Assembly (NCBI GenBank): GCA_020348345.1
Contig: CP070748.1
Location: 225,536 to 289,535 of the forward strand
Source of the DNA: Methanobacteriota archaeon
GTDB lineage: Archaea > Thermoplasmatota > Thermoplasmata > UBA10834
DNA length: 64,000 bases
Reading direction: 5' to 3'
Part shown: positions 12,545-45,192 of the stretch, piece by piece
Numbering within the stretch: position 1 is the first letter of the stretch
Layout: every line of letters starts with the position of its first letter
The notes under the pieces: model-generated
The model's input: only the letters and a program-made list of their open reading frames with translations
The model's database searches: none
What the model was told of the DNA's origin: nothing
Translations under genes and position numbers: made by a program

Positions 12545-14347
12545 TCAGCTCGGCGATCCCTGGGCCACCACCCGCAGCACCTTGTAGAGCACTCGCGGCA
12601 CCTCGTCAAACCCAGAGACCGAGTACATATGACCGCGCCCGTTCCTCGCAATGTTGTCACACGTCTGAGGCTGGCAATCATGACTCGCTGTCATCACAAC
12701 GAAAAGGCGCTTGAACGAGGATGCCACGACGGAGGGGTCTTCTCCCACAGTATAGTTCCCATCAGTGACCAGGACCCCCACCCTGTTGGGCGTGGAAGCC
12801 TTCGACAACGCCTCGCTCCCTTCGCGAAGAGCCGCCTCTATGTTCGTGTACCCGCCGGCGCTGAACTCAAGGAGGCTGAGCACGAGTTCGTCAAGATTGA
12901 GCGTCTCGTCGAATCCCTTTATGGTCCTCGGCCTGTCGTTGAACGTGATCAGCTGGTACTTCACCATCTTAAGCCTGAATGCCAGCACTGCAATGGCAGC
13001 GGTCGCGATCGCCAGCTTGTCTCCGCTCATTGACAGGCTGGCGTCTAGCATCAGGACCACGGATAGATCCTTGGGCTCTCGCCTAGTAACAACGACGTCC
13101 GAAGGCTCAGCCTTCCGTTTCGCGATGATGTTCTCCAGAGTAGATTCGAGGTCGATCTCTCCGCGGTTGCCCACGGCGTACCCCTCTCTGACCAGCCTCA
13201 TCGGCAGGCTGACGGGGCCGAGTAGCCTCAGTACTCTGCGAATCGTTGCGCTGATAGCGATTCTTCGGGCTAGTTCGAGTGCTGCCGGGTCCGAGAGACT
13301 GATCCTTATCTTGAGGTAGTTCTGGGCTATCTTCCATCCGATGTCGTCCCCTCCCAGAAGCGCGTCCTCGTGATGCGTCTCCAACAGCTTCGATACGTCG
13401 GCGATATCGATAATCCTTCTATCGCTGCCTCGCTTCGATGTCTCTGCGCGATTTCCCTCCGAACTCGCATTGTCCCCAGAGGAAGAACGTTTAAGCCCAT
13501 TGCCCTCTGAGAAGCACTCGTCCACGATCTGGTCAATCACTTCATCAACAGTTGCGCGAGACTCCTCCCTGAGCTCGATGCGAGTGGGCAATGCGAGATG
13601 AGCTGCCCTCCTGATCCCGTCCTGAAGATCGAGCGACAACGATGTCCTGAGCTGTACCATGCTCATTGCCGCGCGGATGCTCGCACCCCTTCTTATGTTG
13701 GGGTGATTCCGAGTCCGCCTTGTTATCCATAATGAACATCGGAGAACTTCGTCGTCGGCAGAGGACAGTCGCCTTTTGAGAATCTCCATCTCCTCATCCA
13801 CCGGTTGATAGTCGATCATGAGAAGCTCAAACCTGTCGGACAGAGCCTCGGACAATGCCGTCGTCGCGACGAATTCGCGCGGATTCTGAGTGGCTATGAT
13901 CACAAACCCGTCCCTCGCGCTCACCTGCCCCACCTTGGGTATGTCGATGATGCCCTCGTCCATCGCCGGCAGGAGAATGTTCTGGACCCCCTCGGGCATG
14001 CGGTTCATCTCGTTGACGAACAATACGCCCCCATTCCTCATCGCTTCCGTCAACGGTCCGGGTATGAAAGCCTCCTCGACATATCCCTTCTCCAGTGTAA
14101 CGGGAGGATCGAACCATCCGGACAGCTTCTGTTCAGTGTATCGTTCGTCGCCGTCCACTCGATAGACGGGACGATTCAAATGTGACGCGATCGCCGAGGC
14201 GAGCACCGTCTTGCCCACTCCGACAGGGCCTTCTATCATCAGATGCCTGTTTGCAGAGACGACCGCCAACCCCTTCAGGATCTCTGCCTCTCTGCCTACG
14301 ATTCCTGAGATCCGTTTGATTTCCTGTACGCGTGTGTCTTCCGTCAT
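12545..14347 (-). CDS. MoxR/magnesium-chelatase-type AAA ATPase fused to a VWA domain
   Basis: A 600-residue fusion. Residues about 15-300 form a MoxR/CbbQ-like AAA domain with Walker A GPVGVGKT (about 39-46) and Walker B GVLFVNEMNRM. Here the usual aspartate is asparagine, as I recall it being in many archaeal relatives. A charged helical middle follows. Residues about 420-590 form a von Willebrand A domain with the metal-site motif LDASLSMSG (DxSxS), then TNIEAAL and LVTDGNY. The arrangement copies BchI plus BchD in one chain. Such proteins act as metal-chelatase motors or as chaperones that insert cofactors or remodel complexes; no chelatase partner is nearby. It diverges from the D-aminopeptidase across a shared AT-rich promoter. 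Start ATG at 14347. Confidence 0.85.
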   Translation of the reverse strand: MTEDTRVQEIKRISGIVGREAEILKGLAVVSANRHLMIEGPVGVGKTVLASAIASHLNRPVYRVDGDERYTEQKLSGWFDPPVTLEKGYVEEAFIPGPLTEAMRNGGVLFVNEMNRMPEGVQNILLPAMDEGIIDIPKVGQVSARDGFVIIATQNPREFVATTALSEALSDRFELLMIDYQPVDEEMEILKRRLSSADDEVLRCSLWITRRTRNHPNIRRGASIRAAMSMVQLRTSLSLDLQDGIRRAAHLALPTRIELREESRATVDEVIDQIVDECFSEGNGLKRSSSGDNASSEGNRAETSKRGSDRRIIDIADVSKLLETHHEDALLGGDDIGWKIAQNYLKIRISLSDPAALELARRIAISATIRRVLRLLGPVSLPMRLVREGYAVGNRGEIDLESTLENIIAKRKAEPSDVVVTRREPKDLSVVLMLDASLSMSGDKLAIATAAIAVLAFRLKMVKYQLITFNDRPRTIKGFDETLNLDELVLSLLEFSAGGYTNIEAALREGSEALSKASTPNRVGVLVTDGNYTVGEDPSVVASSFKRLFVVMTASHDCQPQTCDNIARNGRGHMYSVSGFDEVPRVLYKVLRVVAQGSPS

Positions 14348-14377
14348 CAGGACCCAACTAACCGCATACTGGAAGCC

Positions 14378-14389
14378 ATATAATTAACG
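14378..14389. promoter_or_regulatory. Shared divergent TATA region (MoxR-VWA/D-aminopeptidase)
   Basis: CATATAATTAAC reads as a TATA box on both strands. On the minus strand it is centred about 36 nt before the MoxR-VWA start; on the plus strand about 70 nt before the D-aminopeptidase ATG. The two genes may thus be transcribed from one bidirectional site. Confidence 0.55.
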
Positions 14390-14452
14390 TTGGTCGAACG
14401 TCGCCCCAGATGCAAGGGTTTAACTCTCGAAGGCGGATATCCGATTGATAAA

Positions 14453-15286
14453 ATGAAAGCGCATTTCACCGTGGACATGGAAGGAATGGCAGGCATAGCT
14501 CACGAGAACCAGGCGGACGTGAAGGGTCTCGATTTCCCCAGAATGCGCGAGCTTCTGACAAACGAAGTTCAGGCCGCCATCGAGGGAGCGAAGGCCGGGG
14601 GAGCCAAGGAGATAGTGATCTGCGACGCTCACGATACCGGAAGGAATCTGATACTAGAGAAGCTGGATGAGGATGTCATCGTCATCGAGGGGTCGGCGTA
14701 TGAGCAAGGCATGATGGCAGGCATCTCGGACGATTTCGACGCTGCATTCCAAATCGGCTACCATTCCATGAGAGACACGCACGCCGGCACGATAGGTCAC
14801 ACCTACACCTACACAGTGGCGGAGCTGCGTCTGAACGGCGTCAAGGTGGGCGAGACGGGCCTGAGCGCAGCGATTGCAGGGCACTACGGGGTGCCCGTCG
14901 TGTTCGTATCAGGCGATCTGCACGCGGTGAGACAGGCGGAGTCCCTGATCCCGGATATCGTGGGAGTACCGACGAAGGAAGGAGTGGGGGTTTATGGTAT
15001 CAAATCCCTCATGCCGAAGCGGGCCTGTGAGTTGATAAGGAAGGGAGCAGAAGAGGCAATGAAGAAAGCCGGAACAGCTAAACCATATGTCGTGGAACGT
15101 CCCGTCAAGATGGAAGCCATGTTCACCCGCACCATCATGGCTCAGTACGCCTCGCAGATGCCGCTCGTGGAACGGACCGGAGACAAATCCGTGGCATACG
15201 AGGCCAAAGACATGGTTGACGCGTTCTCCGTCTTCGAAGCGCTCACGATGATTGCGCATTCCGCTGGCGAAGAGGGCGAGCTCTAA
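14453..15286 (+). CDS. dppA: M55-family D-aminopeptidase DppA
   Basis: A 277-residue zinc peptidase of family M55, which releases D-amino acids from the N-terminus of short peptides. The metal-binding segments are present: VDMEGMAGI at residues 7-15, CDAHDTGRN at about 60, IGYHSMRDTHAGTIGHTYTY at about 98-117, and the histidine in GDLHAV. DppA forms a decameric ring in Bacillus. The ATG at 14453 fits the family N-terminus (MKAHFTVDMEG); the upstream extension is not conserved-looking. It is followed 18 nt later by a GNAT gene, probably the same unit. Together with the class III racemase-like enzyme at 10744 it could serve D-amino-acid catabolism. Confidence 0.92.
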   Translation: MKAHFTVDMEGMAGIAHENQADVKGLDFPRMRELLTNEVQAAIEGAKAGGAKEIVICDAHDTGRNLILEKLDEDVIVIEGSAYEQGMMAGISDDFDAAFQIGYHSMRDTHAGTIGHTYTYTVAELRLNGVKVGETGLSAAIAGHYGVPVVFVSGDLHAVRQAESLIPDIVGVPTKEGVGVYGIKSLMPKRACELIRKGAEEAMKKAGTAKPYVVERPVKMEAMFTRTIMAQYASQMPLVERTGDKSVAYEAKDMVDAFSVFEALTMIAHSAGEEGEL

Positions 15287-15304
15287 TCTGAACGGGTACA
15301 GGCG

Positions 15305-15757
15305 ATGACTAATACCCTTCTGGACACGATGGTAATCCGACCTGTAAGAGATGATGAGGTCAGGGAAATGATCTCCCTCTGGTCAGAGGCGGGGTTACCC
15401 ACCAAACCTGCGGGAAGAGACACCTTGGAGAACCTGCGTGTGCAATTGAACGCCGCCCCCGATTTGATTATTGGCGCGTTCGACGGAAGCAGGATGGTCG
15501 GCGTGATCATGGGAAGCGATGACGGGCGAAAGGGTTGGGTTAATCGCCTCGCAGTTGCACCAGATATGCGACGGACCGGTGTGGCAAAGACACTTTTGAA
15601 TCGCTGTGAGGATGCGTTGAGATCAAGAGGACGGCAGATCATCTGCACCTTGATAGAAGAGTATAACGAAGCGTCCAAGGAGTTGTTCGTCTCGATGGGT
15701 TACAAGCGCGAGGATGACATCATATACTACACCAAAAGGGACGCGGATGATGTCTGA
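15305..15757 (+). CDS. GNAT-family N-acetyltransferase
   Basis: A 150-residue single GNAT domain. The acetyl-CoA pyrophosphate loop is VNRLAVAPDMRRTGVAKTLL (motif A, with R-x-x-G-V-A), followed by the C-terminal strand LFVSMGYKREDDIIYYTK. It probably acetylates a small amine or a protein N-terminus or lysine; the substrate is unknown. It resembles the ancestral small GNATs of the YpeA/RimI type. ATG at 15305, 18 nt after the dppA stop, so it is probably co-transcribed with it. Confidence 0.85.
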   Translation: MTNTLLDTMVIRPVRDDEVREMISLWSEAGLPTKPAGRDTLENLRVQLNAAPDLIIGAFDGSRMVGVIMGSDDGRKGWVNRLAVAPDMRRTGVAKTLLNRCEDALRSRGRQIICTLIEEYNEASKELFVSMGYKREDDIIYYTKRDADDV

Positions 15758-15762
15758 TTAAC

Positions 15763-16626
15763 TCAGCCAAGCTCGAAACCGGCAACGCCGAGGACGTCAT
15801 CTGAACCTGAGGAATACCTCATGTCGCCGCGAATCATCAGCTTGACCCTCTCCGCCCTCCGGTATTTGTGGTGCCTGGCTATGATGCGGGGAACGAGCCG
15901 GTTTGAGGCGAACGGGGAGATATCGATCCGGCCTCCGCACGGAAACGAGCTCAAGACGGAATCGAGCAATGCAGCGCCATCCTCCCATCGACCAGTGTCG
16001 CAGTACCACGGGCCGATGTCGAATCCTATTGGCGTCCGCCTTCCGAGCACATAGCCGGCGAGATGGCCCGACCTCTCCAGCTTGAAACAGTGTTCCGGGA
16101 ATTCCAGCAAGAGTCTCGCCATCAGCTCAGATCGATCGTCTCCAAATGCCATGCGATCACGGGCTGCAATCTCCGCCACATCGCCTTCGCGGGCGTTGGA
16201 GCACGTGGTCCGAAGTGCTCGTCTCTCACTATCCTTGAGCAAGATGCCAACCGCAATCAGTTCATATCCGCTATCTTCGAATCCGAATTGACGATACAGT
16301 CTACTGCCTTCCTCTGTTGCGTAGAGCATCGTTGAACGAACGCCGGAGGCATCAACGTCCTCCAGAAGGGCGGCGACAAGACCCTTTCCAACCTGACGGC
16401 CCCTGCTATCGCTCGACACGAGCAGATGGCCTATCATCGCTGTTCGCTCGTACCTCATGCTCGTGATGAATCCGCAAGGCTTCCTGCAATCTTCCCACAC
16501 GTAGCTTCCGCCGGGGCTCAAAGAGAGCATGCGAGCCAGGTCTATTCTTGTGTGGCCCCATCTCTCGGCACGGATGAGGTCAACTGCGAAGCCGATGTCG
16601 CTCTCCATCATTCTTCTAGCGGCCAA
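15763..16626 (-). CDS. Tandem GNAT acetyltransferase (YitH/HolE-like)
   Basis: A 287-residue protein. The N-terminal GNAT domain (residues 1-130) has the CoA loop HLLVSSDSRGRQVGKGLVAA and the strand GSRLYRQFGFEDSG. The C-terminal half is a degenerate second GNAT-like domain (RLLLEFPEHCFKLERSGHLA, then GYVLGRRTPIGFDIGPWYCD). Such two-domain proteins occur in bacteria and archaea, and their substrates are unknown. The TTG at 16626 is supported by GGAGGTC 8 nt upstream and by the family N-terminal pattern; ATG codons at 16611 and 16608 are alternatives. It converges with the GNAT at 15305 with only 5 nt between the stops. Confidence 0.8.
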   Translation of the reverse strand: MAARRMMESDIGFAVDLIRAERWGHTRIDLARMLSLSPGGSYVWEDCRKPCGFITSMRYERTAMIGHLLVSSDSRGRQVGKGLVAALLEDVDASGVRSTMLYATEEGSRLYRQFGFEDSGYELIAVGILLKDSERRALRTTCSNAREGDVAEIAARDRMAFGDDRSELMARLLLEFPEHCFKLERSGHLAGYVLGRRTPIGFDIGPWYCDTGRWEDGAALLDSVLSSFPCGGRIDISPFASNRLVPRIIARHHKYRRAERVKLMIRGDMRYSSGSDDVLGVAGFELG

Positions 16627-16776
16627 TACAGCGACCTCCTCGAATGCGCGGCATCAGCATAAGAATATTTGATAACCATGTCGTCAGGGGCCGCAGACTC
16701 GCGGCGAATCGGTTCAACATTGGCCCCGTCGAAAGAGGTCTCAAAATCCATCTAGCCCGCTCAATCTGGAGTCCTG

Positions 16777-16835
16777 GGTTTATAAGAAGAGCACAACGGG
16801 CGCCCGGCCTGAACCTTTCGACATGTTTTTATAAG
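16777..16835 (+). promoter_or_regulatory. Two tandem TATA boxes ahead of the GAF-kinase-like gene
   Basis: GGTTTATAAG (16777-16786) and TTTTTATAAG (16826-16835) are almost the same sequence, spaced 49 nt. The second is about 50 nt from the ATG at 16881. Either two promoters serve this gene or the first serves a short transcript. Confidence 0.5.
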
Positions 16836-16880
16836 CCGTCGCGAATACCAATTGACGGGATTGCACTCGAGAGTCAGACC

Positions 16881-18191
16881 ATGCAACAATCGACCTACGG
16901 CGAGAAAGGCACAGCGAATTCCCTCCGCCAATCCGTCACGAACCTTCCAGAAGACCTTTCGTCAGTACTGAAGCTCATTGTTCGGGCCGAGTCCTTGGAT
17001 ATGGTGCTTGACAGGATAGCACATGCGATCGCATTGAACTTCGACATCAAATCGCTCACAATATGCCTTTACGATGACGAGAGCGGATTCTTCATACCAA
17101 CCCAGATATACGGTTTTCCAGAGGACCAGACAAAAGCGATTGCCAAACACGCGTACACGCTCGAGCGCAAGAAGGATGATCTTGATGAGAAGTTCAGGAT
17201 AAGCAGAGACTGCTACTACATCAAAGCGGAGCAGATAACGAAACTACACGACGACGATATCGATTACCTGAACGGAGTGCCGAAAAAAGCGGACGACGCC
17301 GAACCCGGAGATTGGCACGAACTAGATTACGTGAATCTGCTCATGAGGGACCGCCTTGGCAACATCATCGGATGGATTGAGATTAACGAACCATTGCATC
17401 ATCAGGAATTATCACTGGAAACGATAGAGAGTATTCGACTGTTCTCAGATTTGGCAGCGATAGCAGTGGAGACTTCCAAGATGTCCGGCGAGGCGATCGC
17501 AGCTGTGAATGAATCGCAGAGTCAAATCTACCTGATCGTTCACGACATAGGAGATCTAATGGAACCGCTGGTGCAGCATCTGGACTCAGCACGTAAAGAT
17601 CAGGATTCGGAGGATGCTATCTCATTGAATCTCGACAAAGCTTTGGCCATAGCCAGGCAGGTGAAGACGCTCACAAGAAACGTTCGCAGATTCACAGAAG
17701 CCAGACGAGACGATCGGGCGGAAAGACAATTGTACGATCTGAGGCAGGTTCTCGTTCGCTGTGTTTCCACCATCAAGGCTGATTTCCCGGAGAAGCAAGT
17801 GGCGATAGAGTTCGACTTCCCACCAGATAAGTGTATGATAATCGCGGACGACCTCATAGCAGACCTCTTCTCGGATCTCCTGGGAAGCGCAGTAAAGTAC
17901 TGCGCTGACATCGAGGCCGAGATCGATGTAACCATATCGAGCAACCACGATTCCTGGATAATTCGCATCGATGATCATGGAATGGGGCTCACCGACAAGA
18001 TGAAGAACGCAGCGTCCTCCCGCTTTCCTCAGAAGCCAGGCGACGAGAACGGCGGAGATCTGGAACTTCCAGTGGTGAGTCTTCTAGTGAATCGCTATCA
18101 CGGTCTGGTCACAGTCAAGGACGGGGTGGCTGCTGATCACACCAAGGGCTCTTCGGTCGAAATCGCCCTTCCCAAAGCCCGAGACACCTGA
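16881..18191 (+). CDS. GAF domain histidine-kinase-like protein with degenerate ATPase
   Basis: A 436-residue cytoplasmic sensor. Residues about 40-200 form a GAF-like domain with the segment WHELDYVNLLMRD and then IIGWIEINEP. Residues about 215-290 form a helical DHp-like region with a possible phospho-acceptor in IVHDIGDLMEPL. The C-terminus is a HATPase-like domain with an N-box-like DLFSDLLGSAVKYC and G1 box DDHGMGL, but the usual glycine-rich G2 box (GxGLGL) is replaced by a sequence around GGDLELPVVSLLV. It may be a weak or inactive kinase. No response regulator is nearby. The ATG at 16881 follows TATA boxes; the longer upstream reading has no support. Confidence 0.65.
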   Translation: MQQSTYGEKGTANSLRQSVTNLPEDLSSVLKLIVRAESLDMVLDRIAHAIALNFDIKSLTICLYDDESGFFIPTQIYGFPEDQTKAIAKHAYTLERKKDDLDEKFRISRDCYYIKAEQITKLHDDDIDYLNGVPKKADDAEPGDWHELDYVNLLMRDRLGNIIGWIEINEPLHHQELSLETIESIRLFSDLAAIAVETSKMSGEAIAAVNESQSQIYLIVHDIGDLMEPLVQHLDSARKDQDSEDAISLNLDKALAIARQVKTLTRNVRRFTEARRDDRAERQLYDLRQVLVRCVSTIKADFPEKQVAIEFDFPPDKCMIIADDLIADLFSDLLGSAVKYCADIEAEIDVTISSNHDSWIIRIDDHGMGLTDKMKNAASSRFPQKPGDENGGDLELPVVSLLVNRYHGLVTVKDGVAADHTKGSSVEIALPKARDT

Positions 18192-18236
18192 TAGCGATGG
18201 GAAAGACATAAGAGATATGGCATTGCTTCGCCGCTC

Positions 18237-18683
18237 ATGGCTTCGCACCTGCCTAGTGATGGAATGATGAAGGCCATTGATGATTTCGAATCTATGAGGA
18301 CGCTCGCGCTCGAATCGGGCCTTGATGACGGGGAATTCGATGGGACGGTCCGTGCCTATGGCTACTTTATCGGTAAAGAGCTTGCCGGATGCGTTGCGAT
18401 GAAGCGTTCGAGAGGCACTTATTCGGTTGAATGGCTCGCAGTCAGAGCGCAGGACAGAGGTAAGGGCATTGGGAGGCTGCTTGTCGAGAAGGTCGCAGAA
18501 GACGCCAGGGAAGATGGCGCAGGACACCTGTGGGCTATTGCGAGGACGCCCGAGTTCTTCATGCATATGGGCTTCACATCAAGCTCACAAGAGATCTCAC
18601 CCGTTCTGAGCTTCGAGAACTGCAGGAGATGCCCTCAGTTCAACAACACTTGCTCCCCGAAGATAGTGACTAAGGCCTTGTGA
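18237..18683 (+). CDS. GNAT-family N-acetyltransferase
   Basis: A 148-residue GNAT domain. The CoA-binding region reads VEWLAVRAQDRGKGIGRLLV, a full R/Q-x-x-G-x-G/A motif. This is followed by FFMHMGFTSSS and a short tail with CRRCPQFNNTC. The tail cysteine pattern (CX2C plus one) resembles those of N-acetylglutamate-synthase-like ArgA/YhbS GNATs of archaea, where it may bind metal. An arginine-pathway role would fit the ornithine carbamoyltransferase at 52.9 kb but is only a suggestion. It starts at the ATG at 18237, 45 nt after the kinase-like gene. Confidence 0.75.
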   Translation: MASHLPSDGMMKAIDDFESMRTLALESGLDDGEFDGTVRAYGYFIGKELAGCVAMKRSRGTYSVEWLAVRAQDRGKGIGRLLVEKVAEDAREDGAGHLWAIARTPEFFMHMGFTSSSQEISPVLSFENCRRCPQFNNTCSPKIVTKAL

Positions 18684-18759
18684 CAAGCTACTGAAATCCC
18701 CGCGCTGACGCAATGTATATGTACGCACTTGCCCGTGGCTCCAATCAGAGGCGTGAGGT

Positions 18760-19920
18760 ATGGCCGTAGGCTCGAAGAAGATACGTGCATGTGCCAGCAA
18801 CATGGTAGAAACCTGTAACCTCCGACGTGGAGAGAACGTCATCGTCAAAGGGGGCGCGCACACCCAGGAACTGATGGAAGAGATTTCCCTGGAGTGTTAC
18901 AGGAAGGGCGCACTACCCATTATGATGGTCACCTCGGACAGATACACGAAGGCGGTGTACGACGAGATACCAATCTCAACGTTAGAAAGATCCCCGAAAC
19001 ACTACATCGGAATGGTGGAGAATGCGGACACCTTGATAGCTATCGAGGAGATCGATGATCCCAGAGTGGCGGAGGCTTTTCCCCGAAGGAAGCTGGTTGC
19101 GAGACAGAGGGCGATGCTGCCAATCCTGGACATAGTCTATCACCCGAAGCGTGGGAAAAAGTGGCTCTATGCGGGATGGCCGACAAGAGCCGCCGCGAAG
19201 AGATATGGCATCTCGTTCGAGCAGTTCGAGAAGACAGTCATCGGCGGCATCTCCGTTCCACCAAAGGATCTAATGGTCGCAGGAAGGAGGATTGCCAGCA
19301 GATTCCGCAACGCGTCTTGGGTTCATGTCTGGGACGGCAAGGGAACGGATTTCCGGGTTAAGATTGATGGCAGGCGTGCGAACATCGATGATGGTTTCGT
19401 GAGCAAACAGGATTTCGACATAGGAGAAAGGGGAGCGAACCTCCCTGCAGGCGAACTCTTCTTCGCGCCTAGAGAGACTGTGGGTGAAGGAAGCATCTAC
19501 TGTCCTGTAACACAGGACAGAATGTCAGGGAAGCTGATAAGGGATGTCCACCTCGAGTTCAGAAGAGGAAAGCTCCTGCTTGAGACCGCGGAAGCACGCG
19601 GCGACAAGGACCAGCTTGTAGCTAGCTTCGACGAGTGCGAGAAGATAGATAGTAAGAAATACAGCCCGGTGAGGACATTGCATCTTGCGGAACTCGGAAT
19701 TGGCTTCAATCCGAAGATCAAGAAGGCAATCGGCTATGTGCTCACTGATGAGAAAGTCAGCGGGACGGTTCACCTGGCCTTCGGGCACAACAAGTCCTTT
19801 GGCGGCAGATCTGACTCGGTGATGCATTGGGATTTCGTAAGCGCGCCCGGAGTGAATATTGATGTCAAGAAGAAGGACGGACGAGTCGTATCGGTGATGA
19901 CCGAGGGCAAGCTCGTCTAA
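18760..19920 (+). CDS. M29-family metal-dependent aminopeptidase
   Basis: A 386-residue thermophilic-type metallo-aminopeptidase of family M29 (AmpS/AmpT/PepS), which removes N-terminal residues from peptides using two metals. Visible metal-site segments are NLPAGELFFAP (glutamate), LHLAELGIGFNP (histidine and glutamate), VHLAFGHNKSFGG (histidine) and VMHWDFV (histidine and aspartate). All key residues seem present. The N-terminal half is the alpha/beta domain. The ATG at 18760 is preceded closely by GTGAGGT. A TATA-like TGTATATG lies at about 18714-18721. With DppA and isoaspartyl peptidase it is one of several peptidases in the window. Confidence 0.9.
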   Translation: MAVGSKKIRACASNMVETCNLRRGENVIVKGGAHTQELMEEISLECYRKGALPIMMVTSDRYTKAVYDEIPISTLERSPKHYIGMVENADTLIAIEEIDDPRVAEAFPRRKLVARQRAMLPILDIVYHPKRGKKWLYAGWPTRAAAKRYGISFEQFEKTVIGGISVPPKDLMVAGRRIASRFRNASWVHVWDGKGTDFRVKIDGRRANIDDGFVSKQDFDIGERGANLPAGELFFAPRETVGEGSIYCPVTQDRMSGKLIRDVHLEFRRGKLLLETAEARGDKDQLVASFDECEKIDSKKYSPVRTLHLAELGIGFNPKIKKAIGYVLTDEKVSGTVHLAFGHNKSFGGRSDSVMHWDFVSAPGVNIDVKKKDGRVVSVMTEGKLV

Positions 19921-36624: not shown

Positions 36625-38007
36625 CTACCTGCTCAGATGCATGCCTCTTTCGACCAATGCGTTCAAGGCTCGCACGCATCGTCGTATTGTTGGAAAGGCT
36701 GGCAATCCAGCGCTCGCAGCTTCCGTCAGCGCCGTCGCCTGGTCGCCGGCAAAGACACTGGCAACTATGGGCTTCGGGCCAGCGGACCTCCTGCCAGCGA
36801 TTTCGATGAGCTGGCGGGTGACATTCGGGGGCTGCAACTCCAACGACATGAGGATTGCATCGATACCTGGATCAGTCTGAAGAATGGCCAACACCTCGTC
36901 ATACATCTCATCAGTGACGCCTGCAGTCAGGTCTATCGGGTTCTGGACCGAGGTGAAATCGGGTACAACCGAGCGAAGCGCCGAACTCGTCTTCTCCGAC
37001 GGTACCGCCATACTCAATGAAGGGGCAGTCTCATTCGACTCCACGAGATCGGAGGCCATGACCCCGAATCCTCCGGCACTGGCAACAATGCATATCCTGC
37101 CTCCGCGTAGATAATTCATTACGGAGAATGCCCGGCATAGGTCAACAAGATCCTCCTCCTCGCGGGCGCGTGTGACTCCTGCTTGTCTGAGCGCACCGTT
37201 CACCACCGGGTCAGACGAAGCAGATATCGCACCGGTGTGAGAGCGAGCCGCTCTTGCGCCTGCAGGCGTCCCTCCGGACTTGACAAGAACTATCGGCATG
37301 CTGCTCGACATCTTCTTGGATAGCTCTATGAAACGCCTTCCGTCCGAGAACGACTCAAGGTACATAGCCATGCAATTTGTGCCTGAGTCCTCCTCGAAGT
37401 ATTGCATCAGGTCCATTTCGTCAATATCGGATTTGTTTCCCACACAGACGCACGCTGAGATTCCCAAGCCTGAAGCTGCAGCCTTCTCCATGAACGAGAC
37501 TGCCACTGCTCCACTCTGTGATATCATCGCAACAGTGCCTGGACACGGCCGACGGCTTCTGTCCTTAGGGATGAAGAGCGTGTCAAGTGAAATGGATGGC
37601 ACGAAGACTCCCATGGCGTTCGGGCCCAGGATGCGCGTCTCTGAGCCTCGAATAGCATCCAACAGCTCTCTTTCGAGCTGGAGACCTGCCTTCCCAGTTT
37701 CGGAAAAACCCGACGCGCTCACGATCACAGCGCGGACACCCTTGGCGACACATTCGCGCGTTGCAGAGACGGAAGCAGATGCAGGAAGCACGATGATGGC
37801 CAAATCGACAACGCCTGTGACCTCTTTGACAGAGCTGTAGCATTTCCTCCCGAGTATCTCATTCTCGTTGGGATTGACAAGATACACCGTTCTATCCCCG
37901 GCCAGGAGATTTGTCAGTACGGCATTACCTATCTTGCCCGCCTTGGCTGATGCACCTATCAACGCGATGGATGAGGGTCTCAGTAGGGGGTCGAGACGGC
38001 TGGTCAT
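36625..38007 (-). CDS. Acyl-CoA synthetase (ADP-forming), alpha-type subunit
   Basis: A 460-residue protein with the CoA-binding domain (LRPSSIALIGASAKAGKIG) and two succinyl-CoA ligase domains. GPNAMGVFVPS and ISQSGAVAVSFMEKAAA precede the phosphorylated histidine in ARSHTGAIS. With a beta subunit (ATP-grasp) it converts acetyl-CoA or another acyl-CoA, ADP and phosphate to the acid and ATP. The beta domain is absent from this gene and was not seen in the window. The ATG at 38007 lies 28 nt from a TATA-like GAATAATACC (38031-38040); ATG at 38019 is the alternative. Confidence 0.88.
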   Translation of the reverse strand: MTSRLDPLLRPSSIALIGASAKAGKIGNAVLTNLLAGDRTVYLVNPNENEILGRKCYSSVKEVTGVVDLAIIVLPASASVSATRECVAKGVRAVIVSASGFSETGKAGLQLERELLDAIRGSETRILGPNAMGVFVPSISLDTLFIPKDRSRRPCPGTVAMISQSGAVAVSFMEKAAASGLGISACVCVGNKSDIDEMDLMQYFEEDSGTNCMAMYLESFSDGRRFIELSKKMSSSMPIVLVKSGGTPAGARAARSHTGAISASSDPVVNGALRQAGVTRAREEEDLVDLCRAFSVMNYLRGGRICIVASAGGFGVMASDLVESNETAPSLSMAVPSEKTSSALRSVVPDFTSVQNPIDLTAGVTDEMYDEVLAILQTDPGIDAILMSLELQPPNVTRQLIEIAGRRSAGPKPIVASVFAGDQATALTEAASAGLPAFPTIRRCVRALNALVERGMHLSR

Positions 38008-38175
38008 CTGGCGAGTCATAGCGTTGACTCGGTATTATTCTATTCACTACGCTGTTCACCAGACGTGGCAGAAGCGTGCCATTGTTGAAGGGTGTTCCTC
38101 CGTCGGACGTCATCCGGGAATGTTCAAATATCGTCAGGGCCATTCACGAGGTTAACGTAGGGGGTTGGGAGGTAC

Positions 38176-38592
38176 ATGGAACTGAGAGACATCGTTGGCG
38201 GTTCTCGCCCTGTCAGGATCTCGCCTGACGCGAGCGTTGCCGACGCGCTTGTGGCTATGGCGGAGAACAAGACGGATTTCGTGATCATTGACAGGACGGA
38301 CATTGGAGACGCTTATGGAATCATCAGTCGTTGGGACATCGTAGTGGGGCCAGTGGCAGAGGGCAAATCACTTTCTGAGATGCCGGCTCTATCGTGCGCA
38401 CGCAAGCCAGTAGTGGTGATGCACAACCTAGACCTAGACATCCGCTGGGTTGCAAAGAAGATGGCGAACGAGAACGTCTCCAGGATCATGGTCTTCGAGG
38501 GGGAGAACTTCGTTGGAGCAGTTTCCGACATGGACATCCTCAAAGCGATTGCCGCGGACGGAACAGGCAAAGGCAAGGGGGGAGATAGCTGA
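38176..38592 (+). CDS. Two-CBS-domain protein 1
   Basis: A 138-residue protein made only of two CBS domains, which usually bind AMP, ATP, SAM or NADH. Pattern elements are VRISPDASVADALVAMAENK, then GIISRWDIV, and ENVSRIMVFEGENFVGAVSD followed by MDILKA. It is the first gene of a four-gene operon with a second CBS protein, HdrA and the MvhD-HdrCB fusion. It has a GGGAGG ribosome site, and its last base is the first base of the next start codon (overlap TGATG). The ligand is not predictable. It may tune the Hdr complex to cell energy status. Confidence 0.88.
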   Translation: MELRDIVGGSRPVRISPDASVADALVAMAENKTDFVIIDRTDIGDAYGIISRWDIVVGPVAEGKSLSEMPALSCARKPVVVMHNLDLDIRWVAKKMANENVSRIMVFEGENFVGAVSDMDILKAIAADGTGKGKGGDS

Positions 38593-39038
38593 TGGAGATA
38601 GGAAGGCTTACCCTACGAGATGTCGTCAAGACCTTCGAGTTGCCTATGATAGCGCCTGATGCGAGCATTCTGGAGGCGATTCAGAAGATGATTGACAGCG
38701 ATTGCTACACGTTGATAGTGCCCAGGAGCTCGAAAAACGACGCCTATGGAATCATTACGAAGAGGGATGTTATATCCAGGGTCGTAGCCGAGGGCAAGAA
38801 TCCTGCCGAGGCCAAGGTGGGCGATTTCATGTCGAAGCCTCTGGTTCTGCTGACCAATCTCTCGCTCGACCTCCGCTGGGTCGCGAACGCGATGGCTAAT
38901 TCAAAGGTTTCGACCATCGCCGTCTTCGAAAAGGGCGATTTCTATGGCTATGTTACCGAATCGTGCATCTTGGACGGCATCTACCACGCTATGAGACGAG
39001 CGAAGATTGAAGATGGCGTCGAGTTCGTGTCTTGCTAG
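38592..39038 (+). CDS. Two-CBS-domain protein 2
   Basis: A 148-residue CBS pair, homologous to the preceding gene: PMIAPDASILEAIQKMIDSD, then GIITKRDVISRVVAEGKNP and KVSTIAVFEKGDFYGYVTES. The repeated element LDLRWVANAMANSKV matches LDIRWVAKKMANENV in the first, showing duplication of the whole gene. Start overlaps the previous stop by one base, so the two are translated together and could form a heterodimer. HdrA starts 25 nt downstream. Confidence 0.88.
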   Translation: MEIGRLTLRDVVKTFELPMIAPDASILEAIQKMIDSDCYTLIVPRSSKNDAYGIITKRDVISRVVAEGKNPAEAKVGDFMSKPLVLLTNLSLDLRWVANAMANSKVSTIAVFEKGDFYGYVTESCILDGIYHAMRRAKIEDGVEFVSC

Positions 39039-39062
39039 AAGGTCACTGACCGGAGAAGACGG

Positions 39063-40850
39063 GTGAAGGAGATGGAAGACACCAGCCCAGATCCTGAGAA
39101 CGAGAAGAAACTTGCAGCCTATCTTTGCGGCTGTCGAGGCGCTGTTTCCCGATTCATCGACCTGGAGGCGATAGCAAAGGAACTCGCTGAGGACCCAGAC
39201 ATCGTCGCTGTCTCAGTTCACGAAGCGTTGTGCTCAAGAGACGGGCAGAGGTTTCTGAAGGAGGAGAGAGCGGCGAAGAAATTCGACAGAGTAGCAGTCG
39301 CCGCCTGCTCGCCGAATATCCAAGGACTCATAATCAGCCGCTCCCTGGAGGAAGAAGGGATGAACAGGTACCTCTTCGAACAGGTCAATATCAGGGAGCA
39401 ATGCGCATGGTCCCATGCAGATCGGGAGCGAGCAACGGAGAAAGCTCGTCGGCTGATACATGGCGCGATCGCGAGGGCCAGGGAGCTGGAGCCGCTCGAG
39501 GATATCGAGGTGCCTATACTGCCGTCGACTTTGATCATCGGCGGAGGCGTCACTGGAATGCAGGCCGCCCTGGATATTGCGGGCGCCGGATTCAAGGTGT
39601 ATCTTGTCGAGAGATCTGGCGAGCTTGGTGGGCGCGCCTACAAGCTCAGCATGACCTTCCCGACTCACAACTGTGGCATCTGCTGCATGCAATATTGCAA
39701 AGAGTGTGTGTTCACCCCGAAGATCGAAGACGTCCATCAGAACGAGAACATCGAGCTGATGCTCAACTCTGAGGTCGAGGATATCACTGGAGGCTTCGGC
39801 AATAGGCATGTGAAGATCCGCATGCCGGAAGACACGAGAGAGTTCGACGTCGGCACGATCATAGTTGCCACGGGATCAAAGACCTTCGACCCCAGCAGGA
39901 TCCCGGAACTCAGATACGGCAATCCCAATGTCATAACCACGGTGGAGCTAGAGCATTTGATGGTCGAACAGAGGGAGAAAGGTGGAGGCCTCAAACGGCC
40001 TTCGGACGGAGCCGTTCCGAAGACCATCAACTTCATTCAATGCGTCGGATCAAGAGATAAGGTCAAGGGTAATCTCCATTGCTCGCTCGTCTGTTGCACT
40101 TATGCCATCGGACAGGCGAGGGAGATCAAGAAACTTCTTCCCGACGCGGAGATCTATGTCCACTACATAGATCTTCGTGGGCCTTACAGAGGATTCGAAG
40201 AGTTCTACGACCAGGCCAAGGAGGAGGGCATCCATTTCGTCCGCGGAAGAGTGTCCGAGGTCGTCGAGGACAAAGGTGAGCTGTTCATCAGAGCTCTCGA
40301 CACAGACTCTGGCGACCTGTTGAACATACCATCCGACCTGGTCGTGCTCGCGGTGGGCCAGGAGCCCTCGGATGGCAGTGAGATGATCTCGAAGATGTTG
40401 CACATCCAGACGGACATCGATCGATTCATGAAGGACATCAACCCCATGTTCCCGTCCGAGTTCAGAAGGGGCGTGTACGTCGCAGGTACGGCGCAGGGGC
40501 CGAAGGGAATCAGGTACTCCATCGAGGACGCGAAGGCTGCCGCAGCGAGTGCTATTGACCTGATGCAGAAGAGCAAGATACCGTTCCCCAGAATCGTCGC
40601 CTTTGTTGACGAGAATCGATGCCGCGGTTGCGGCAGATGCAGAGACGCGTGCGAGTACGAGGCCATAACTCTAGTGAAAGACGAGGACAAGGACGTGATC
40701 GTGTCGAAAGTTGATGAGATCGTATGCGAAGGCTGTGGCGCCTGTGCTGCCACCTGCTGCAACAAGGCAATCACTATCAACAACTTCAAGCGAGAGCAGG
40801 TGGAGGCGCAGATACGCGCTTTGCTGCAGGGGGCTGAAGCCGATGGCTGA
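39063..40850 (+). CDS. hdrA: Heterodisulfide reductase subunit A (HdrA)
   Basis: A 595-residue flavoprotein. The N-terminal ~130 residues include the cluster-bearing AYLCGCRGAVSRF region. The FAD loop is LIIGGGVTGMQAALDIAG. The cluster-binding cysteines CGICCMQYCKEC and then CVGSRD with CSLVCCTYA follow. The C-terminus holds two ferredoxin motifs, CRGCGRCRDAC and CEGCGACAATCCNKA. HdrA is the flavin-based electron-bifurcating subunit of HdrABC complexes, which couple reduction of a disulfide (or other acceptor) to ferredoxin reduction. The start is GTG at 39063. It is encoded with the MvhD-HdrC-HdrB fusion and overlaps it by 8 nt. Confidence 0.93.
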   Translation: MKEMEDTSPDPENEKKLAAYLCGCRGAVSRFIDLEAIAKELAEDPDIVAVSVHEALCSRDGQRFLKEERAAKKFDRVAVAACSPNIQGLIISRSLEEEGMNRYLFEQVNIREQCAWSHADRERATEKARRLIHGAIARARELEPLEDIEVPILPSTLIIGGGVTGMQAALDIAGAGFKVYLVERSGELGGRAYKLSMTFPTHNCGICCMQYCKECVFTPKIEDVHQNENIELMLNSEVEDITGGFGNRHVKIRMPEDTREFDVGTIIVATGSKTFDPSRIPELRYGNPNVITTVELEHLMVEQREKGGGLKRPSDGAVPKTINFIQCVGSRDKVKGNLHCSLVCCTYAIGQAREIKKLLPDAEIYVHYIDLRGPYRGFEEFYDQAKEEGIHFVRGRVSEVVEDKGELFIRALDTDSGDLLNIPSDLVVLAVGQEPSDGSEMISKMLHIQTDIDRFMKDINPMFPSEFRRGVYVAGTAQGPKGIRYSIEDAKAAAASAIDLMQKSKIPFPRIVAFVDENRCRGCGRCRDACEYEAITLVKDEDKDVIVSKVDEIVCEGCGACAATCCNKAITINNFKREQVEAQIRALLQGAEADG

Positions 40851-42501
40851 GGGCGATAGCGACACCTTCGAACCTGAAATCATCGCATTCACCTGCACTT
40901 GGTGCGGTTACCCATCCGCGAATCTTGCTGGAGTCAACAAGATAGAGTATCCTCCCAACGTGAAGATCATCCGCGTGATGTGCAGCGGGAGCGTCGAATC
41001 GGCGATAATAATGGATGCCTTCGAGAGGGGCGCGCACGGTGTGATAGTAATCGGGTGCCTGATGGACAACTGTCACTATGTTACTGGCAACAAGAGGGCG
41101 CAGGAGAGGATTGACGCTCTGAAAGAGCTGTTCGACATCATGGGATTGGATTCCAGGAGACTCAGGACTGAATGGATCAATGCATCGGAAAGAACGAAAT
41201 TCGCAAAGGCGGTGAGCGAATTCGTGGACGAGGTCAGAGCGCTCGGGCCGCTGCGGCTGGCCATTAAGGGGGAGACTAGCCCGCCCACGCATGATCAGAC
41301 CTCAGCAGAGGTGAAGCGAATCATCGAAGACACCGGCGCATTTGACTGCGTGGAGTGCGGCAAATGCACCACGGTGTGCCCGATTGCCACTTATGACGCA
41401 GAGTTCGCGCCGAGAACCATCGTGCTGCGGGCGATGGAGGGTATGGTGGAGAGTATCGCGAGTGATCGCGATATCTGGACTTGCATCGCTTGCGAACAGT
41501 GCAATGCGATGTGCCCCTACAAGGTCGACTATTCAGGATTCATTCGAGGCATGAGGGAGGAGGCTGCGAAGTACGGGGCGGCACCTCTGTGTTCCCAGGG
41601 AGGGCTTATTCATTCCGTTCAACGCATAATGGCAAATGCGAAGCTCAAGCAGAAACGCCTTGCGTGGGTCAAGGACGACCTCAAGATCGCGGACGAGGGC
41701 GACGTATTCTACTTCGTGGGCTGTCTCCCCCATTATGATGCGATATTCAAGGACCGGGACATGGAGCTGCAGAACATATGCGAGGGCGCCGTACGCATCA
41801 TGAACAAAGCGGGAATAACGCCCGTCGTCAGCAACGAGGAGAAGTGTTGTGGTCACGACCTCATGTGGACTGGAAATGAGGGGGATTTCGAGAAGCTAAT
41901 GGAACACAATGTGGAACTCATCAAGAAATCGGGCGCCAAGAAGGTCGTGTTCACATGTCCAGAGTGTTACAGAACCTTCAATGCTGACTATCAGGACCTG
42001 ATGGGTGATTTCGATTTTGAGCTTGTTCACATATCGGATTTCGTGAAGCAGCTGATCGATTCGGGAAGCATCGATGCTTCGGACTTCTCTGCCGCTCCTT
42101 TCAAATTCGCTTATCACGACAGTTGCAGACTCGGCAGACATTCCGGCATATACGACAGCCCTAGAGCTCTAGCCGACGCTTTCTCAGGAGGGAACTTCGT
42201 CGAGATGGAACGGACGAAGGACAAGGCAGCATGCTGTGGCGTCAGTGCATGGACCAACTGCAACGCTCAAGTGAAGAAGATGCAGATAGAGCGTCTCCAG
42301 GAAGCTAGACGCCTCGGAGCTGAAAGGCTGCTTATGTTCTGCCCCAAGTGTCAAGTACACTTCAAGTGTGCAGTGCAGGACGAGATTCCGGTCGACAGGT
42401 CTGAGGTTGATGTCGGTATTGAGGACTTCACGGTCGCGATGGCGAGGCTGCTCTCCCTCATGGGCGACTCGAAGAAGGATTCGGCAGAAACGAAAGAGTG
42501 A
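40843..42501 (+). CDS. Fused MvhD-HdrC-HdrB protein
   Basis: A 552-residue fusion of three Hdr-complex parts. Residues 1 to about 130 are MvhD-like (CTWCGYPSANLAG, CSGSV, GCLMDNCHY), a 2Fe-2S electron entry. Residues about 165-250 are HdrC-like with CVECGKCTTVCPIA and CIACEQCNAMCPY (two 4Fe-4S clusters). Residues about 285-530 are HdrB-like with two CCG units (EEKCCGHDL with CPECY, and HDSCRLG, AACCGVSAW with CPKCQ) that bind the noncubane clusters reducing disulfide. The start ATG at 40843 overlaps the hdrA stop; a G-rich stretch precedes it. No hydrogenase or formate dehydrogenase gene that would feed MvhD is in the window. Confidence 0.9.
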   Translation: MAEGDSDTFEPEIIAFTCTWCGYPSANLAGVNKIEYPPNVKIIRVMCSGSVESAIIMDAFERGAHGVIVIGCLMDNCHYVTGNKRAQERIDALKELFDIMGLDSRRLRTEWINASERTKFAKAVSEFVDEVRALGPLRLAIKGETSPPTHDQTSAEVKRIIEDTGAFDCVECGKCTTVCPIATYDAEFAPRTIVLRAMEGMVESIASDRDIWTCIACEQCNAMCPYKVDYSGFIRGMREEAAKYGAAPLCSQGGLIHSVQRIMANAKLKQKRLAWVKDDLKIADEGDVFYFVGCLPHYDAIFKDRDMELQNICEGAVRIMNKAGITPVVSNEEKCCGHDLMWTGNEGDFEKLMEHNVELIKKSGAKKVVFTCPECYRTFNADYQDLMGDFDFELVHISDFVKQLIDSGSIDASDFSAAPFKFAYHDSCRLGRHSGIYDSPRALADAFSGGNFVEMERTKDKAACCGVSAWTNCNAQVKKMQIERLQEARRLGAERLLMFCPKCQVHFKCAVQDEIPVDRSEVDVGIEDFTVAMARLLSLMGDSKKDSAETKE

Positions 42502-44698: not shown

Positions 44699-45021
44699 TT
44701 CAGCCAAAGCCTTCCACTTCCGTTGGTCCCGTCGCTATGTATGTATCGCGAATCTAAAAAAGGTTTTCACATCCTGCTTTCATTTTGGCGACTTTCATGG
44801 TCCGCATCACCGCGCTTGAACCGCAACGCGAGAATATCAATTTGCGAAAACGAATCAAAAGACACTTATTATACAAATGCATTTACATAATCGAGGATGC
44901 ATCAAAAAACAGCTTCTCATCGGCTGCACAAACAGCATCGAATGGGACTATGCATCACGGTAACCTTGCGCCGATTAAGCCTGATAGACACATGAAGCAA
45001 CGCAACAGGAGGAAAAACCAA
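44699..45021. other. Divergent intergenic region
   Basis: No gene seen. On the plus strand CTTATTATAC at about 44864-44873 is a strong TATA box about 150 nt before the lysine-rich gene, suggesting a long leader with a good ribosome site. The leftward GTPase promoter is presumably near 44730-44765, where TTTTTAGATT on the minus strand is the best patch. Confidence 0.45.
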
Positions 45022-45192
45022 ATGTCTTGCGGTAAGTGTGGCAAGAAGACAAAGAGGAAGGCAACAAAGAAGAAGTCAACAAAGAAGAAGGCGGCAAAGA
45101 AGAAGCCAGCTAAGAAGAAGCCAGCCAAGAAGAAGACCGCCAAGAAGAAGCCTGCCAAGAAGAAAGCCACCAAGAAAAAGAAGAAGAAGTAA
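45022..45192 (+). CDS. Lysine-rich histone H1-like small protein
   Basis: A 56-residue protein. It starts MSCGKCGKKTKRKA, with a single CxxC, and is then almost wholly repeats of (A/P/T)KKK(P/A): TKKKSTKKKAAKKKP and so on, ending KKKKKK. It has about 34 lysines. Such tails neutralise DNA or RNA, as in eukaryotic H1 tails and bacterial H1-like proteins. Start ATG at 45022 follows AGGAGGAAAAACCAA, a good ribosome site. The gene at 54726 encodes a protein with a similar tail, so this composition is a recurrent theme here. Target unknown. Confidence 0.7.
   Translation: MSCGKCGKKTKRKATKKKSTKKKAAKKKPAKKKPAKKKTAKKKPAKKKATKKKKKK

Follow-up and report, generated by a model that had tools for sequence, protein, structure and literature searches.

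A conserved CBS-CBS-HdrA-(MvhD-HdrC-HdrB) operon in Thermoplasmatota and its putative role as a non-bifurcating disulfide reductase module

What might a compact Hdr operon that begins with two genes for CBS-only proteins do in an archaeon? The operon lies in the window, the whole stretch of 64,000 nucleotides analysed here (contig CP070748.1), which belongs to a Thermoplasmatota archaeon with a genome assembly of 1.70 Mb and 87% completeness. A preliminary description, made from the sequence, had read the locus as an electron-bifurcation unit with built-in nucleotide sensors. We compared the unit with solved Hdr complexes and with related genomes, and examined the rest of the genome for electron donors.

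The four-gene unit, its CBS pair and the age of their link

Four co-directional ORFs lie where the preliminary description had placed them; the first two overlap by 1 nt, 24 nt separate the second from the third, and the last two overlap by 8 nt. Their features and the divergent neighbour are as follows.

36625..38019, - strand: acetate--CoA ligase (ADP-forming) alpha-like subunit (TIGR02717), divergent neighbour of CBS1
38176..38592, + strand: CBS1, stand-alone CBS-pair (Bateman) protein, 138 aa; Pfam CBS only
38592..39038, + strand: CBS2, CBS-pair protein, 148 aa, C-terminal FVSC; Pfam CBS; overlaps CBS1 by 1 nt
39033-39035, + strand: Cys148 codon of CBS2
39063..40850, + strand: HdrA variant, 595 aa, GTG start, 24-nt gap after CBS2
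40843..42501, + strand: MvhD-HdrC-HdrB single-chain fusion, 552 aa, overlaps HdrA by 8 nt

The neighbour gene scores 419 bits with TIGR02717, under the profile cutoff of 567. A promoter scan with a sigma-70 model, which is not meant for archaea, gave no more sites than shuffled sequences. At 44785-45192 (+) of the window, a small ORF has a Lys/Ala-rich repeat tail (KKKSTKKKAAKKKPAKKK...), and similar low-complexity ORFs hold the same place beside a small GTPase gene in genus relatives.

The four-gene unit is a genuine variation on known Hdr systems and is deeply conserved. HdrA and the fusion occur as a pair in 19 genomes of the order, the window genome included, and the relatives bearing names are Thermoplasmata or Euryarchaeota MAGs. 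Since the arrangement recurs through the order with 63-85% identity for HdrA and the fusion, it is far beyond chance. Absence of the CBS genes beside the Hdr genes in relatives had been set beforehand as evidence against the pairing; they were found there in 15 of the 19 genomes. Both lie directly upstream of HdrA in 14, and in the fifteenth (G018) the contig ends inside CBS2. Strong CBS-pair matches in the class are confined to the window's order (16 of 400 genomes).

The link extends to another class of the phylum. Two genomes of family f39, G403 and G414, have the order CBS1-CBS2-HdrA-MvhD-HdrCB, with MvhD and HdrCB unfused and within a longer run of Hdr genes; their HdrA is 60-61% identical to the window HdrA and their CBS2 is 41% identical to that of the window. 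Given the unfused arrangement, either the CBS genes and HdrA became linked before the fusion arose, or the link passed between lineages by transfer. We also considered the CBS genes as chance neighbours and rejected this, as the gene order recurs in another class. In other families, HdrAs of the same clade also occur without CBS genes, beside unfused genes (G034, G044, and G464) or beside a fusion (G083, G163, G199, G225, and G255).

Within the order, no CBS pair stands beside the HdrA-fusion in G008, G012, G014, and G016. The CBS pair of G008 is on a different contig, next to a gene that borders the operon in related genomes, and the incomplete assemblies of G012, G014, and G016 gave no strong CBS-pair match. 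G008, G014, and G016 group together in a single clade (support 0.999) inside genus g3, so a single relocation fits best; G012 is outside the tree. Unrelated import of the three HdrA-fusions was rejected on the same clade. The reverse case is G005, a single-contig MAG of 65% estimated completeness, in which CBS1-CBS2 lie between the same two flanking genes as in the window and HdrA and the fusion are apparently gone; it is the sole case of this loss with the CBS pair kept. About 160 bp separate CBS2 from the amidohydrolase gene there (L147:9486-9650), and the gene order is otherwise conserved. The CBS-Hdr link is old and not obligatory, because G005 keeps the CBS pair alone and others keep the HdrA-fusion alone. 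This separability weakens the earlier view that the CBS pair is built into the complex as its sensor.

CBS1 and CBS2 are, as first described, CBS-only by Pfam and related to each other (38% identity in the alignment). Each chain has two CBS domains; Pfam detects two stretches in CBS1 but a single one in CBS2, whose second domain was recognized in the alignment. The Asp of CBS domains contacts the ribose of bound nucleotides, and CBS domains that bind adenine nucleotides usually have it. Three of the four domains retain the pattern G-x-x-[ST]-x-x-D, with Cys replacing Asp in the second domain of CBS2 in nearly all aligned proteins. The pair may thus bind adenylates, judging from these motifs. 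Of the proposed sensing of AMP/ATP or NAD(H), the adenine-nucleotide part agrees with the retained Asp residues, and the NAD(H) part found no support. The association of the genes suggests that the CBS proteins may control Hdr, and the pair adjoining the HdrA-fusion is a candidate device through which energy charge would directly govern electron flow in Hdr. The titles and abstract openings in the literature searched contained no apparent description of a CBS-Hdr pairing. A single CBS-pair protein ending in Cys occurs in G430 (L204:3621-4058, - strand), with a full-length HdrA gene on one side and divergent HdrC-like and HdrB-like genes on the other.

Could the CBS pair mainly serve the divergent ADP-forming acetyl-CoA synthetase, in the manner of AcuB, the Bateman protein that serves acetyl-CoA synthesis in Bacilli, and lie beside Hdr for historical reasons? 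A synthetase alpha-like gene is divergent to CBS1 in 13 genomes of the family, G005 retains it with the CBS pair after losing the HdrA-fusion, and AcuB is a precedent, with acsA divergent to the acu operon (PMC13121692). However, this explanation fails for G020 and for G403 and G414 of the other class, because the CBS-Hdr link exists there without a synthetase neighbour. The CBS pair of G008 also has no such neighbour on its short contig, and the overlaps, like those of a single transcript, join the CBS genes to Hdr and not to the synthetase. We regard service to the synthetase as unlikely.

The HdrA variant and the single-chain fusion

The HdrA ORF is intact, but the earlier description of HdrA as complete is wrong, since an inserted ferredoxin domain is missing and the lysine K409 is replaced by G350. 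The sites concerned are the following.

39672..39707, + strand: C204-C215 motif CGICCMQYCKEC of HdrA; C207 = Cys197 equivalent; eight-residue insertion
40110..40112, + strand: G350 codon, position of the bifurcation lysine K409, by alignment to 5odc_A
40599..40775, + strand: C-terminal two-cluster ferredoxin domain of HdrA, by Pfam and alignment to 5odc_A

In the alignment, residues 3-236 and 317-652 of 5odc_A are matched, and the region of about 237-316, which is the inserted ferredoxin domain, has no counterpart in the window HdrA. The remainder is well preserved. The FAD/TrxR domain with its cluster ligands is present, and the cysteines of the N-terminal domain, the Cys197 equivalent (C207) and the ligands of the C-terminal clusters are all retained. 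E356 of 5odc_A is retained as E297. The insertion beside C207 adds three invariant Cys. The AF2 model (pLDDT 84) matched 5odc_A with a Foldseek TM-score of 0.84.

K409 and E356 serve in published work to tell bifurcating from non-bifurcating flavins (PMC12054007, PMC9430772), a rule for K409 that is a proposal drawn from structures and alignments, and the inserted ferredoxin domain is described as the exit to ferredoxin (PMC9012536). We surveyed the K409 position in 85 HdrA domains from the compared genomes, counting as clade members those that share 47% or more identity with the window HdrA. Gly occupies the position in all 30 clade members and Lys in 49 of the 55 others. In the window genome, the Lys is likewise missing from the two other HdrA domains that lie directly before a fusion, which have Ala and Ser. 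The lysine is a stronger sign than the inserted domain, because many K409-bearing HdrAs of the compared genomes also have no inserted domain. As both the flavin-steadying lysine and the inserted domain are gone, the window HdrA is probably unable by itself to split electrons to ferredoxin, and the clade is predicted to have lost bifurcation at this subunit. The retained E356 counts against this reading; bifurcation could still proceed via another route or in a heterodimer with a K409-bearing HdrA.

The original reading of a compact bifurcating HdrABC-MvhD unit, with CBS proteins sensing AMP/ATP or NAD(H) directly inside the complex, can point to the complete motifs of HdrB, HdrC, and MvhD, to E356 and to the conserved operon, but we consider it improbable given the loss of K409 across the HdrA clade, the loss of the inserted domain and the separability of the CBS and Hdr parts.

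The last gene encodes MvhD, HdrC-like and HdrB-like parts in one chain, as initially recognized, and none of its cluster-type cysteines varies among 15 orthologues.

40879..41247, + strand: MvhD (FlpD) domain of the fusion, residues 13-135; PF02662 E 1.3e-47; PDB 5odc_D E 5e-40
41344..41526, + strand: HdrC-like double [4Fe-4S] domain of the fusion, residues about 168-228; PF13183; PDB HdrC chains
41704..42357, + strand: HdrB-like part of the fusion, two CCG domains (PF02754, two stretches), complete cysteine motifs

Modelled with AF2 (pLDDT 79), the fusion corresponds piecewise to 5odc chains D, B, and C. Besides MvhD and HdrB of solved Hdr complexes, the model also matches mycobacterial EtfD. 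The chain has the HdrD-type feature of [4Fe-4S]2 and two CCG domains in a single polypeptide. It is not unique in the genome, which encodes paralogous MvhD-HdrC-HdrB chains at 501 kb and at 1230 kb. We rejected selenocysteine in hits to paralogous fusions; the in-hit TGA codons are most likely natural ends read through by the search, because most such matches exceed the usual alignment end. No description of an MvhD-HdrC-HdrB fusion was found in the literature searched; PMC11237513 describes Hdr fusions as common and able to join more than two subunits, and that paper may list such a fusion.

The C-terminus of CBS2 raises another possibility. It ends in Cys in all 16 CBS2 proteins examined. 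Within the order the tail reads [FY]VSC, apart from G005 with EFATC; the other class has MLSC. Elsewhere in the genome, 4 of 295 sampled, roughly called ORFs and none of the six other CBS proteins end in Cys. CBS2 could be a redox partner whose terminal Cys would extend to the HdrB clusters or to the extra-Cys site of HdrA, with the CBS pair as sensor and as substrate or tether. The C-terminal Cys of DsrC meets its partners, which offers a loose analogy. The change of the tail to FATC in G005, a genome without the HdrA-fusion, would fit this role, as would the terminal Cys of the CBS protein next to canonical HdrABC genes in G430. However, each CBS2 chain has a single conserved Cys, G012, G014, and G016 have the HdrA-fusion without CBS2, and G005 still keeps the Cys itself. 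The role seems quite doubtful to us.

Candidate electron donors in the genome and a proposed function

The guess that this might not be a methanogenic Hdr is supported: an MCR_alpha search of the 87% complete genome found no mcrA and did find the controls. The disulfide is therefore probably not CoM-S-S-CoB. Hydrogenase and formate dehydrogenase genes are absent from the window, as stated before, but they exist elsewhere in the genome, which corrects the earlier picture. A VhuA-like NiFe subunit is encoded at 489-490 kb, and FdhA, above its cutoff, at about 885 kb. K409-bearing HdrAs accompany both the formate dehydrogenase (880-887 kb) and the VhuA-like hydrogenase (489-511 kb).

No donor module lies beside the window operon. 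A formate dehydrogenase cluster is adjacent in G019, where HdrA-HdrA-MvhD, a 264-aa protein and an FdhA-like protein follow about 220 bp after the window-type operon in the same direction. K409-bearing HdrAs are among the neighbours of the module in G019. In G034, G044, G403, and G414, the window-type HdrA adjoins K409-bearing HdrAs or runs of further HdrA genes. This adjacency to K409-bearing HdrAs and FdhA supports the view that the unit belongs to a larger modular system, in which it would be a side module that reduces disulfides.

The donor regions themselves are complex. The giant Hdr cluster at 489-511 kb (L009 and L150) includes the VhuA-like NiFe hydrogenase, an MvhG-like subunit, MvhD, several double HdrAs, a second MvhD-HdrC-HdrB fusion and an HdrB-like protein; one of its HdrAs is long enough for an inserted ferredoxin domain. 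At 880-898 kb (L087:2364-8601 and 13256-19901), an HdrA-HdrA-MvhD-(259 aa)-FdhA cluster is followed by FTHFS and by HdrA-HdrA-MvhD, with a MetV-domain protein alongside. As the genome contains FTHFS, a MetV C-terminal domain protein and a fused CODH-ACS ORF, we infer a Wood-Ljungdahl, acetogen-like gene set. The fused ORF (L152:7193-11359, - strand, about 1400.2-1404.4 kb) is 1388 aa long and joins CODH (Prismane), CODH_A_N, CdhC, and the ACS C-terminal part.

We propose that the operon encodes a soluble disulfide reductase that does not bifurcate, or a thiol oxidase if it runs in reverse, with its own adenylate-sensor-like CBS pair, a reading that we hold to be about evenly balanced between right and wrong. 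The [2Fe-2S] site of the MvhD domain would receive the electrons. Within HdrA they would run from the C-terminal clusters over FAD to the N-terminal cluster, and from there by way of both HdrC clusters to the two noncubane clusters of HdrB, where the disulfide would be reduced. Bifurcation would be left to the separate K409-bearing HdrAs with formate dehydrogenase or hydrogenase, with which the module may combine, and the CBS pair would tune the module to energy charge.

A bolder version, which we think very unlikely, would be a disulfide reductase gated by energy charge, with the Bateman protein as both sensor and redox partner. CBS2 would offer its invariant C-terminal Cys to the noncubane clusters of HdrB or to the extra-Cys site of an HdrA without the lysine, and binding of a nucleotide to the CBS pair would switch the electron flow between bifurcating and non-bifurcating HdrAs.

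The non-bifurcating reading gives the locus wider meaning. An HdrA clade that is predicted by sequence to be non-bifurcating runs across several Thermoplasmatota families and is kept beside bifurcating HdrAs, which makes the need for K409 and the inserted ferredoxin domain in bifurcation directly testable. Energy-charge control of Hdr was not found in the literature searched, and the setting here is acetogen-like archaea known from metagenomes.

Comparison with known systems

HdrABC-MvhAGD of Methanothermococcus thermolithotrophicus (PDB 5odc) has homologues of the same HdrA, HdrB, HdrC, and MvhD parts with their cluster ligands. Unlike that complex, the window unit has neither the inserted ferredoxin domain nor K409 and carries MvhD-HdrC-HdrB in one chain. 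It also has CBS genes in the operon, no adjoining hydrogenase gene and no mcrA in the searched genome. The HdrA2 type of Methanosarcina, an HdrA-MvhD fusion, is related through its NCBIfam profile, which is the best one for both the window HdrA (542 bits, under the cutoff of 1100) and the MvhD domain of the fusion. The window MvhD is joined to HdrC-HdrB rather than to HdrA, however, and K409 is lost. HdrD, in which HdrC and HdrB are fused, and the TfrB, GlpC, and EtfD-like proteins share two [4Fe-4S] sites followed by two CCG domains in one chain, whereas the window fusion has an N-terminal MvhD domain and no adjacent membrane partner.

The MetVF-HdrCBA-MvhD system of Sporomusa ovata resembles the window unit in that its HdrA has no inserted ferredoxin domain and one of its two flavin domains is without the E/K signature (PMC9430772). 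Its HdrA differs in having two TrxR domains per chain, the other of which keeps E/K, and in being linked to MetVF, with no CBS reported (PMC9430772). AcuB, a CBS-ACT Bateman protein that senses adenylates, is likewise a CBS-pair protein with a divergent acetyl-CoA synthetase gene (PMC13121692). AcuB has an ACT domain, whereas the window has two CBS-only proteins, a synthetase of the ADP-forming type and Hdr genes in the operon.
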